From: Bacteroidales bacterium
GTDB taxonomy: Bacteria > Bacteroidota > Bacteroidia > Bacteroidales > UBA932
Assembly: GCA_028700975.1 (NCBI GenBank)
Contig: JAQVRQ010000007.1
Span: forward strand, 1 to 50,399
Direction: 5' to 3'
Length of the DNA: 50,399 nucleotides
The notes under the pieces were generated by a model. The model searched no databases. It was not told where the DNA came from and was given only the letters and a program-made list of their open reading frames with translations. Positions 5,159 to 48,798 of this stretch are shown in pieces (position 1 is the first letter of the stretch; every line of letters begins with the position of its first letter). The position numbers were made by a program, and so were the translations under genes.

Positions 5159-7057
5159 TTATAAGTCGTGCCTTACAAAAAGTTCAATAGCCTGATACTC
5201 TGCCATACCCAGTTTATCAAATAGTAAGGCGGTATTGTGGTTCCTCTCTTCTGCCCTTTGCCAAAACTCTCTTTTATCAGAACCTGGAAAAAGAGGTCGG
5301 TCTTTTTGAGATTGATGTTTGAAGATAGCCTCTCTTTTGATGATTACCTCTTCCGGACTAAGTGGAACAGCCATATTGGAATCTTCTACATCCCACTCTT
5401 GCCAGGCTCCTCTATATAGCCATACTCTGCAATCTTTCATCCACTTCTCGTCTTTAAGCTCTTCCAAAGCAGCAAAAATTGCCTGTAGACAGACTCTGTG
5501 AGTACCATGAGGGTCGCTCAAGTCTCCTGCTGCGTATACTTGATGAGGTTTGACTTTTTGAAGAATGTTTTTAACAATTTCAATGTCGGCGCTGCTAACA
5601 GGCTTCTTCTTTACTCCTCCGGTTTCATAGAATGGCAAATCAAGAAAATGCACTCTGTTTTCCGGTATTTTAAGGTAACGACAAGCAGCTTTAGCTTCTC
5701 CTCTTCTAATAGCAGCTTTTACAGCTCTTATGCTAGGAGTATCTGGCTCTCCGGGATGCTTAACACTGAGTTCCTTAAGTGCGTTAGCATAAATGTTATC
5801 GCTTTTTGCAGTATCAAAATCAAATATTTTGGAACTATCTCTTAAGAAGTCAAGAAACCTTACAGCATCGTGATCAAATACTGCAATATTACCAGAGACT
5901 TGATATGCAATATGAACTTCGTGTCCGTGTTCTGAAAGTCTAGCCATTGTTCCACCCATTGATATTACATCATCATCAGGATGAGGGCTGAATATTATAA
6001 CCTTTTTGGGAAATGGTTTTGCTCTCTCAGGACGAGTAGAGTCATCTGCATTTGGTTTTCCTCCCGGCCATCCGGAAATAGTATGCTGAAGATCGTTGAA
6101 TACTTTTATATTAATCTTACTTGCAGGACCTTTTTCCGTAACAAGATCACTCATTCCATTATCGTTATAATCCCTATCAGTAAGCTTGAGAATAGGTTTA
6201 TCAAGTTTTTTGCATAACCAAAATACAGATTTTCTAATCATAAAATCTGTCCACTCAATGCTTCCTGTGAGCCAGGGGGTTTTAACCCTTGTTAGCTCAG
6301 CTGCAGCAGGCAGATCAATTATAATCTCAAGATTATCGTGTTGTTGGAGATAGGATAGGGGGGTTTGTTCATTAACAACTCCCTCCACCATTTTTGCAAT
6401 TGCTGGAGCCTTACCCTCACCCCAAGCTAGGAAGAAAATCTTCTTAGCAGAGAGTATGGTTTCAATACCCATTGTAAGGGCGTGGAATGGCACATATTCC
6501 ACTCCGAAGAACTCTGACGCAGCAGATATCCTTGAGGAGTAGTTAAGGGTAATTAGACGGGTTTTTGAGTTATAAGGAGAACCAGGCTCATTGAAACCCA
6601 TACCTCCGGTAACAAGGGCATCTATACCTCCGAATTTTTTAATCTTTAACTCATAGTTTTCGCAATAATCGTGAACATTAGCTTTAGGAATTTCTCCATC
6701 AAGAAAATGGATGTTTTCTGAAGGAATATCAATCCCATCAAGAAGGTATTCCTGGAAAAATCGGTAGTGACTTTGTAACTCCTTTTTATTCAAGGGCCAA
6801 TACTCTTCTACAGAAAAAAGCTGAACGTTTTTGAAGGATAAATCCTTCTTTTTATGAATGTTAACCAACTCTTCATAAACCTGAATTGCAGAAGAACTAG
6901 CGCTCAAAGCCAAAACGCAGTTCTGACCTTTTCTTGATTTGCTTCTTATAAGTTCTGCAATACTTTCGGCAACGAGAAGAGATGCTGCGGAAGAATCCTC
7001 GTAGATATCTACCGGGATTTTCTCGTACCTTTTTGTGAAATCACCGTGAATAATCAT
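5159..7057 (-). CDS. NagB-like / PIG-L (LmbE) deacetylase fusion protein, deaminase half degenerate
   Basis: This is a two-domain protein of the Bacteroidota long glucosamine-6-phosphate deaminase type. Residue numbers count from the ORF-track start (TTG at 7078). I prefer the ATG at 7057 (residue 8) because a TAnnTTTG promoter element overlaps the TTG. Residues 20-300 are NagB-like (FNEPGS at 162-167). Residues 355-639 are a PIG-L zinc deacetylase with HPDDD (366-370) and GDLSDPHGTHR near 565. In the NagB half the glycine-rich phosphate loop is replaced by ALSASSSA (57-64). The proton-acceptor Asp72 of E. coli NagB aligns with Glu. The loop carrying Asp141/His143 is shortened to VTGGM, so it has no histidine. 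The deacetylase half looks functional; deaminase activity is doubtful. It is co-oriented with rarA, 19 bases away from the longer start, and followed by a terminator. Confidence 0.85.
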   Translation of the reverse strand: MIIHGDFTKRYEKIPVDIYEDSSAASLLVAESIAELIRSKSRKGQNCVLALSASSSAIQVYEELVNIHKKKDLSFKNVQLFSVEEYWPLNKKELQSHYRFFQEYLLDGIDIPSENIHFLDGEIPKANVHDYCENYELKIKKFGGIDALVTGGMGFNEPGSPYNSKTRLITLNYSSRISAASEFFGVEYVPFHALTMGIETILSAKKIFFLAWGEGKAPAIAKMVEGVVNEQTPLSYLQQHDNLEIIIDLPAAAELTRVKTPWLTGSIEWTDFMIRKSVFWLCKKLDKPILKLTDRDYNDNGMSDLVTEKGPASKINIKVFNDLQHTISGWPGGKPNADDSTRPERAKPFPKKVIIFSPHPDDDVISMGGTMARLSEHGHEVHIAYQVSGNIAVFDHDAVRFLDFLRDSSKIFDFDTAKSDNIYANALKELSVKHPGEPDTPSIRAVKAAIRRGEAKAACRYLKIPENRVHFLDLPFYETGGVKKKPVSSADIEIVKNILQKVKPHQVYAAGDLSDPHGTHRVCLQAIFAALEELKDEKWMKDCRVWLYRGAWQEWDVEDSNMAVPLSPEEVIIKREAIFKHQSQKDRPLFPGSDKREFWQRAEERNHNTALLFDKLGMAEYQAIELFVRHDL

Positions 7058-7074
7058 ATCATTAGAATTGAACT

Positions 7075-7083
7075 GCAAAAATA
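7075..7083 (-). promoter_or_regulatory. Bacteroidota-type -7 promoter element (TATTTTTGC) for the NagB/PIG-L gene
   Basis: A perfect match to TAnnTTTG on the minus strand lies in the short rarA to NagB/PIG-L gap. It covers the TTG start proposed by the ORF track, so transcription from it would favour the ATG at 7057. This gives the fusion gene a possible transcript separate from rarA. Confidence 0.5.
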
Positions 7084-7097
7084 ATTAAAAATTGTTA

Positions 7098-8405
7098 TTA
7101 GTATTCATACTTTTCCCACAGACGCTCAAGCAGAGACCTTATCTCTCTTTCTCTTGGATTGTTAGCAGGATTGTAAAATTTTCTTCCAGACATTGACTCA
7201 GGCAAAAATTCCAAATCTGTAAAATTCCCTTCATATGAATGTGCATATTTATAATCCTGCCCATATCCAATGTTTTTCATCAGTTTTGTAGGAGCATTTC
7301 TCAAATGAAGAGGAACAGCTTTGAATCCAGATTTTTCAATTTCAGCAAGAGCTTCGTCTATAGCCATATAGGCAGAGTTGCTTTTAGTAGAAGTTGCCAA
7401 ATATATTGCTGTATGAGACAAGATAATTCTAGACTCTGGCATTCCAATTTTACTGACAGATTCAAAACAAGCGTTTGCTAAAAGCAGAGCATTTGGATTT
7501 GCAAGTCCAATATCCTCAGAAGCAAGTATAATCATTCGTCTTGCTATAAACAGTGGATCTTCTCCGCCTGATATCATCCTTGCCATCCAGTATATTGCAG
7601 CATTGGGATCAGACCCTCTTATACTCTTTATAAATGCAGATATAATATCGTAATGTTGCTCTCCATTTTTGTCGTACAAAGCAATATTTTCCTGAAGCTT
7701 CTCAGTAACCAGTTTGTTTGTTATAACAATTTTCTCCTCGCGTGAAAATGAGGAGAAAATAAGCTCGATTATATTTAAAAGTTTTCTAGCATCACCACCA
7801 GAAAATCTAAATAGGGCCTCATTTTCACTTATAGAAATATCTCTCTCTTTAAGAATTAAGTCTTCATTTAGAGCCCTCTTAGTAAGTTTATCAAGATCTT
7901 CTACTTCAAGAGATTTAAGAATATAAACTTGACAACGCGAGAGAAGGGGAGTTATAACTTCAAATGAGGGATTTTCAGTTGTAGCACCAATAAGCGTTAT
8001 TGTTCCATCCTCAACGGCACCCAACAGAGCATCCTGTTGGGATTTACTAAATCTATGAATTTCATCAATAAATAATATTGGTCTACTTTTGGTAAAAAGA
8101 GATCTTGATTTTGACTTTTCAATAATTTCCCTAACATCTTTAACGCCCGCATTTACAGCTGAAAGTGTGTAGAAAGGTCGTTCAAGTTTATGAGATATTA
8201 TTTTAGCAAGAGTTGTTTTGCCGACTCCGGGAGGGCCCCAAAGAATAAATGAGGAGATATTTCCACCCTCAATCATTTTTCTAAGCACAGCATCTTTACC
8301 GACCAAATGTTCCTGGCCAACATAGTCATCAAGGGTAGTAGGGCGTAGACGTTCTGCTAAAGGTGATGTTGGTGATGTTTCGCACTCCTCAGGGCTATTT
8401 AACAT
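7098..8405 (-). CDS. rarA: Replication-associated recombination protein A (RarA/MgsA), AAA+ ATPase
   Basis: This is a clamp-loader-like AAA+ ATPase that acts at stalled forks and is related to eukaryotic WRNIP1. Walker A is GPPGVGKT (57-64), Walker B is LFIDEIHRF (111-119), sensor 1 is [10 protein letters not shown], and an arginine-finger segment LLSRCQVY follows. The C-terminal MgsA tetramerisation domain includes the characteristic [22 protein letters not shown]. The length of 435 residues is typical. It lies 19 bases after the preceding minus-strand gene, probably in one transcript with it. Nothing in the sequence is unusual. Confidence 0.95.
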
Positions 8406-47544: not shown

Positions 47545-48798
47545 CTAGAGCAATTTTTTATATAATCTATTTACATTTTCTAATATTTCACCTTCTCCGA
47601 GCACTTTCCTACCCTCCATAACAACTTTACCATTACAAATAACAGTGTCAATACAGGAACTATTTGCTGAATAAATTAGATTTGCTAAAAAGTTAATATT
47701 TGGTGTAAAAGCATAATTATCAATATCAATAAGTGATATATCTGCAAGCCAGCCCTCTTTAATTAATCCTGTTTTTATTCCCAATGATTTACCACCATTT
47801 AAAGTCGCTAAATTCATTAGTTCGCTTATTGGAAGAGAAGTAGGATCTCCTCTCCAAGCTTTTTGAACTAAAGCAGCTGTTTTCATAGCTTCAAGCATAT
47901 CTAAGTTATTTGATGAGGCACAACCATCGGTCCCAAGAGTAACAGTTAGACCAGCATCTCTCATTTCATTATATCTAAATTTATAGCCCGATGCAATTTT
48001 GAGATTAGAATTAATATTATGGACCACTTTCACGTCGTACTTAGATAAGATCTCAATATCATTATCATTAAGCCACAGTGAGTGTGCTGCCACAACTTCA
48101 GGGCCAAGGACTCCTAATTGCTCAAGATATTTTGTTGGTGACACTCCGTGTTTTTTTAATGACTCATTATTTTCCCACTCAGTCTCAGAAAGATGGATGT
48201 GAACTATTAATCCCCTCTCTCTAGCAAAATTTGAGCCCCACTTAATCATTTCTGCCGTTACACTATACGGAGAATGAATTCCAATTGCAAAAGTATGCAA
48301 ATCACTCCACCCTTTTGAGAGTTGAAAAAGTTCTTCACAATCATTTTTAATTTGAGAAGATAATGAGGTATTCATCTGATCCAAAATTACAAATGGTTGA
48401 ACAGATCTTAACCCAGCCTCTTCAATTGCTTTCACTGATGAAGGCACTTTCCAATACTGATCATTAAAAGTAGTAGTACCTGTTTTAACCATTTCAAGAG
48501 CTGCTAGTTTACTTCCCCAGTAAACCATTTCATCGTCAAGTTTTTTCTCAACTGGCCAAATACGATTTTCTAACCAATCGATTAAATGCATATCCTCTCC
48601 TATTCCTCTCATCAAAGTCATAGCTGCGTGAGTATGCATATTTACAAAACCAGGTACAACCCATTTACCTTTTGCATTAATAACTTTATCTGCAATAAAA
48701 TCTATTTCAGTAGCAATCTTTTCAATTCGTTTATCTTTAATAAGAATATCAGTTTCAATCCCCTCAAGCGTCGCCTTTTTTATCAAAATGGAACTCAT
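47545..48798 (-). CDS. mtaD: 5'-methylthioadenosine / S-adenosylhomocysteine deaminase (amidohydrolase)
   Basis: This is a zinc amidohydrolase of the MtaD/DadD/SsnA group. The N-terminal small beta domain is followed by the metal motif [18 protein letters not shown] (about 52-69). Then come [20 protein letters not shown] (metal His and catalytic Glu), [24 protein letters not shown] and [17 protein letters not shown] (catalytic Asp). The length of 417 residues is typical. It deaminates the adenine ring of MTA, SAH or 5'-deoxyadenosine to the inosine form. As the first gene of the operon it produces the substrate for the PNP encoded 2 bases downstream. Which nucleoside is preferred cannot be read from sequence. 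Confidence 0.9.

Follow-up and report, generated by a model that had tools for sequence, protein, structure and literature searches.

Long-form NagB/PIG-L fusion proteins are, at slightly better than even chances, unrecognised bifunctional GlcNAc-6-phosphate deacetylase/deaminases. On this view their PIG-L half would supply, in many Bacteroidota and in several further phyla, the NagA step that is missing from the recycling of amino sugars and peptidoglycan, and their deaminase half would repeatedly have become a scaffold where a separate NagB is present. The fusion considered here lies in a window of 50,399 nucleotides (the whole stretch of DNA that was analysed, contig JAQVRQ010000007.1 of the Bacteroidales assembly GCA_028700975.1), and its NagB half is predicted from alignment to be catalytically dead.

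In the proposed explanation the ancestral fusion would be a two-step enzyme of amino-sugar breakdown, wherein the C-terminal PIG-L zinc hydrolase, together with a conserved linker, would deacetylate GlcNAc-6-phosphate, and the N-terminal NagB half would then turn GlcN-6-phosphate into fructose-6-phosphate and ammonia. A separate NagB in the genome would make the deaminase half of the fusion redundant, allowing its active site to decay. The window fusion would thus carry a dead yet folded NagB half, putatively kept by selection as the structural partner of the deacetylase, and deamination would be carried out by a separate NagB of 269 amino acids encoded by the window genome. We regard it as probable that the fusion is a two-step enzyme whose deaminase half decays to a structural partner where a separate NagB exists. 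If true, a non-orthologous replacement of NagA could be named in a phylum that lives on sugars from chitin, mucin and cell walls, and a widespread 'glucosamine-6-phosphate deaminase' would receive a corrected annotation. A natural series would also be at hand in which a bifunctional enzyme has retained one of its halves and lost the function of the other on three or more occasions. Either of the predicted reactions can be assayed by simple means.

Identity and regions of the fusion protein

The fusion is encoded by a minus-strand open reading frame of 639 amino acids (5159-7078), for which the ATG at 7057 is a likelier start than the listed TTG at 7078 (Table 1). Residues 14-637 match the NCBIfam model NF002557 over its full length (941 bits, cut-off 384), a match that places the entire protein in a long-form family already described. 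NF002557 (PRK02122.1, 'glucosamine-6-phosphate deaminase-like protein') has the same full-length two-domain architecture as the window fusion, and Bacteroides thetaiotaomicron BT_0258 is presumably a member. Members outside the loss clades described below mostly keep Asp72, His143 and Glu148 (E. coli NagB numbering), whereas the whole genus to which the window belongs has lost His143 by a loop deletion. The position of the rarA-like gene directly upstream of the fusion is conserved within the genus and also in two further genera of this family, as seen by tblastn of the flanks.

The two halves differ in how they score against profiles of their families. The PIG-L half reaches 69.1 bits against PF02585 (gathering score 28.2); the NagB half scores 186.6 bits against TIGR00502, under the equivalog cut-off of 236.9. 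In Foldseek searches with the predicted structure, the PIG-L half matches diacetylchitobiose deacetylases, including the Pyrococcus structures 8bgo and 3we7. These and other PIG-L/LmbE enzymes share the C-terminal fold and the HPDDD motif with the window protein. In the window protein, however, the PIG-L domain is joined to NagB through a conserved linker, and its substrate would be GlcNAc-6-phosphate. Deacetylation is the predicted retained activity of the window fusion. The linker shows strong conservation across family members (LKLTDRDYNDNG...GWPGGKPNADD), evolves slowest of the three regions and matched no Pfam family over 6008-6277 (minus strand); it may be part of the deacetylase site.

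Table 1. Positions in the window of the fusion gene, its regions and motifs, and the gene upstream
Feature	Positions	Strand	Basis or remark
NagB/PIG-L fusion gene, likely ATG to stop	5159..7057	-	ORF, translation, NF002557 match; start predicted
Zinc deacetylase half of PIG-L (LmbE-like) type, predicted to be active	5162..6007	-	Pfam PF02585, Foldseek match 8bgo
DPHGTH motif	5498..5515	-	Alignment
HPDDD metal and general-base motif	5969..5983	-	SPHPDDD in 71/73 family members
Linker, ~90 residues	6008..6277	-	Many invariant family columns, lowest dN of three regions
NagB (GlcN6P deaminase) half, predicted inactive	6278..7027	-	Pfam PF01182, 61 bits
Shortened catalytic loop (VTGGMGFNE) with Glu148 but no Asp141 or His143	6587..6613	-	Alignment
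Glu at Asp72 position (SVEEYW); Asp in most congeners	6806..6808	-	Alignment
Phosphate loop ALSASSSA (E. coli GLPTGGTP)	6887..6910	-	Alignment
rarA-like ATPase gene, directly upstream of fusion	7098..8405	-	Flank tblastn; name from sequence reading

The deaminase site and the constraint on the NagB half

The catalytic loop of the window fusion, VTGGMGFNEPGS, is five residues shorter than that of E. coli, GGVGNDGHIAFNEPAS, and equivalents of Asp141 and His143 are therefore lacking. Among the four catalytic positions Asp72, Asp141, His143 and Glu148, only Glu148 is retained in an alignment with E. coli NagB. A preliminary description, made from the window sequence alone, had reported the altered phosphate loop, the Glu at position 72, the short loop devoid of a catalytic His, and intact HPDDD and DPHGTH motifs in the PIG-L half; the alignment agrees on each of these. 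The short loop is common to all 21 genus sequences that cover the region, the window included, which rules out a sequencing or assembly error as its origin. The change of Asp72 to Glu is recent: apart from the window sequence it is seen in three close relatives, and the remaining genus sequences retain Asp. At position 141 even the intact family members carry Thr, Ser or Asn, and since Asp is already missing there, His143 is the informative residue; given Thr rather than Asp at this position, the deaminase activity of the intact members is itself a prediction.

That the NagB half still works as a deaminase by means of substitute residues appears very improbable. The candidate would be a His at the position of E. 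coli Tyr85, which is present in 21/21 genus sequences, and position 85 has changed from Tyr or Phe in all 41 sequences that lack His143 as opposed to 1/32 of those that keep it. However, other loss clades carry Asn, Thr, Ser or Arg at this position, the deletion has removed the loop needed to position a catalytic His, the closest sequences no longer have Asp72, and the window genome encodes a normal NagB at another locus. This separate NagB is of canonical type and has all four catalytic residues (DEY, GPDGHIAFNEP).

The AlphaFold model of the fusion has a pLDDT of 88, and its NagB half superimposes by Foldseek on E. coli NagB (1dea) at 1.8 angstrom (TM 0.85 by target length) and on B. subtilis NagB (2bkv) at 1.6 angstrom. 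The predicted fold is thus the same as in these two enzymes, and Glu148 and Lys208 are kept; the window fusion differs from both in the absence of Asp141 and His143 equivalents, in its altered phosphate loop and in the Glu at position 72. Within the genus, dN of the NagB half is twice that of the PIG-L half. The ratio of NagB to PIG-L distances is 1.06 in intact forms and 2.28, 2.11 and 2.34 in three loss clades, so that the NagB half of the loss clades evolves about twice as fast as the PIG-L half, yet it is constrained. Its dN/dS is ~0.05 in the least-diverged pairs, synonymous sites being near saturation in most pairs. With the same reservation about saturated sites, this low dN/dS rules out free decay of the NagB half.

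The simplest interpretation is that the NagB half serves a structural role. The preliminary description had proposed that the fold is retained and has a non-catalytic role; the former is supported by the predicted structure, and the latter, in the form of a structural role, fits the purifying selection. Its further suggestion, that the NagB half has another substrate, is improbable because the loop is missing. The decayed half might alternatively be a regulatory sensor that binds GlcNAc-6-phosphate or GlcN-6-phosphate without turnover and so controls the deacetylase. Purifying selection and the retained fold would suit such a sensor, as would the conservation in the clade of the window of Glu148 (5/5) and of Arg158 and Lys208 (4/5 each). 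The parts that have changed, however, are the phosphate loop and the catalytic loop, both of which hold the sugar phosphate, and position 160, a Lys of the allosteric site in E. coli, is Ile here; a sensor is considered unlikely.

Loss of His143 and the separate NagB

The relation between the state of the fusion and a separate NagB was assessed in 68 fusion-bearing genomes of the order, a set made up of genomes with a completeness of 95% or more together with that of the window. Among those of the 68 without a separate NagB, His143 is kept in 26/27 genomes and lost in one, and among those with a separate NagB it is lost in 35/41 and kept in six (Fisher p = 4.8e-12, kinship among genomes ignored). 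The six genomes that keep His143 despite a separate NagB, and the one that has lost it without a separate NagB, G232, run counter to the explanation proposed here. G232 (fusion L135) is a 1.2-Mb genome, and no other member of the order set combines a fusion lacking His143 with a failure to find a separate NagB. The separate NagB adjoins the decayed fusion in about 20 genomes.

Because relatedness inflates the Fisher p value, a tree was built on the PIG-L half only. Four state changes are found on this tree, and three once long branches have been removed and a careful method is applied. On both trees every loss of His143 goes with a separate NagB, never the opposite way. The loss of His143 has arisen three to four times independently, a number of events with which a sign test cannot reach significance.

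One of the loss clades comprises 30 sequences of the same order, in which His143 is replaced (mostly by Asn, also by Ser or Ala) and Asp72 is lost too. In two further clades, both of which contain members of the window's family, His143 is deleted or replaced by Gln, Asn, Ser or Gly. According to the preliminary description, Bacteroides long forms already lack the His, and the window protein may be a further stage. The first point is supported in kind by the 30-sequence clade of the same order, which lacks His143 and may or may not be Bacteroides; the second fails, as the PIG-L-half tree places the clade of the window elsewhere and thereby rules out a further stage of a Bacteroides-like loss, the losses being independent.

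In the majority of long forms from elsewhere Asp72, His143 and Glu148 are all present, residue 141 being Thr, Ser or Asn, and the fusion is therefore not dead as a family. Outside the order, long forms are the sole NagB matches in ten genomes, and the long forms sampled there keep His143. In most of the family, the fusion that keeps His143 appears to be the sole NagB of its genome.

NagA, gene neighbourhoods and the substrate of the deacetylase

NagA (TIGR00221) is the classical GlcNAc-6-phosphate deacetylase, and the reaction proposed for the PIG-L half is the same; NagA, however, belongs to the amidohydrolase family and is unrelated to the PIG-L half. In the window genome, which is 86% complete, no NagA match lies above the cut-off, the best (22 bits) being located outside the fusion; given this completeness, the absence of NagA is not certain. 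The own-genome search gave no match to NagA within the fusion gene, and the fusion is the sole PIG-L protein found in the genome. An amidohydrolase gene at 47545-48798 (minus strand) was considered as a hidden NagA and rejected, its best models being adenosine-type deaminases and chlorohydrolases.

Within the order, NagA matches at E <= 1e-40 are present in 11 of the 68 genomes with the fusion and were not found in the other 57. When NagB-bearing genomes of the order are compared, NagA is no less frequent to a significant degree with the fusion (11/68) than without it (6/22; p = 0.35), both being present in some genomes and neither in others. As there is no significant anti-correlation between NagA and the fusion, the argument for NagA replacement is based mainly on gene clusters and on genomes that have no other candidate.

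The neighbourhoods of intact-type fusions were compiled from 80 named loci in Bacteroidota, Balneolaceae, Ignavibacteria, Gemmatimonadales and Planctomycetes. Recurrent neighbours include MurQ (7), AnmK (6), AmpG-like (5) and NagZ-like GH3 (5) genes, and also DeoR-type regulators (8), NagP-like (7) and NagX-like (4) genes. In Robiginitalea, Muriicola and a Maribacter MAG, a MurQ-DeoR pair is divergent from a fusion-(GHL10)-AmpG-NagZ-AnmK cluster. NagA is absent from 7/7 genomes in which MurQ lies beside the fusion versus 15/34 of the other named genomes (p = 0.01, kinship ignored). MurQ makes GlcNAc-6-phosphate; where it adjoins the fusion in genomes without NagA, the deacetylation of this compound would therefore be left for the PIG-L half.

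It is possible, though we rate it well below an even chance, that the substrate of the PIG-L half is some other acetylated amino sugar (a UDP-sugar, a glycan of the cell envelope or a conjugate of GlcNAc), and that the adjoining NagB consumes products further down. PIG-L enzymes vary in substrate and the nearest structures are diacetylchitobiose deacetylases; moreover, some genomes have both the fusion and NagA. The 0.49-Mb genome G025 (loci L082 and L020) keeps the PIG-L motifs next to a collapsed, nearly unrecognisable NagB half, and this could mean that the role is in biosynthesis and not in catabolism. A separate NagB-like gene is also present in G025. Conversely, the fusion to NagB itself, the repeated adjacency of a separate NagB, and the peptidoglycan-recycling clusters with MurQ in genomes without NagA all point to GlcNAc-6-phosphate, the substrate favoured here.

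A search of open-access papers found none describing a PIG-L GlcNAc-6-phosphate deacetylase in Bacteroidota. A study of chitin utilisation by F. johnsoniae predicts separate NagK, NagA and NagB, and the nagB product could not be expressed (PMC5127042).

Among 73 fusions, only two have a broken HPDDD motif, L077 (genome G161) and L137 (genome G293). G161 is a reverse case, having two NagA-like matches and a fusion with broken PIG-L motifs and an intact NagB half; in G293 the first Asp of the motif is lost and there is no NagA match. A second, distant NagB-PIG-L long architecture of ~600-790 amino acids is represented by L021 (G095, 794 amino acids), G155:C21, G161:C3 and G148:C55. In L021 the catalytic loop, GGIGPDGHIAFN, is intact and the PIG-L motif is altered (TGPHHDD).
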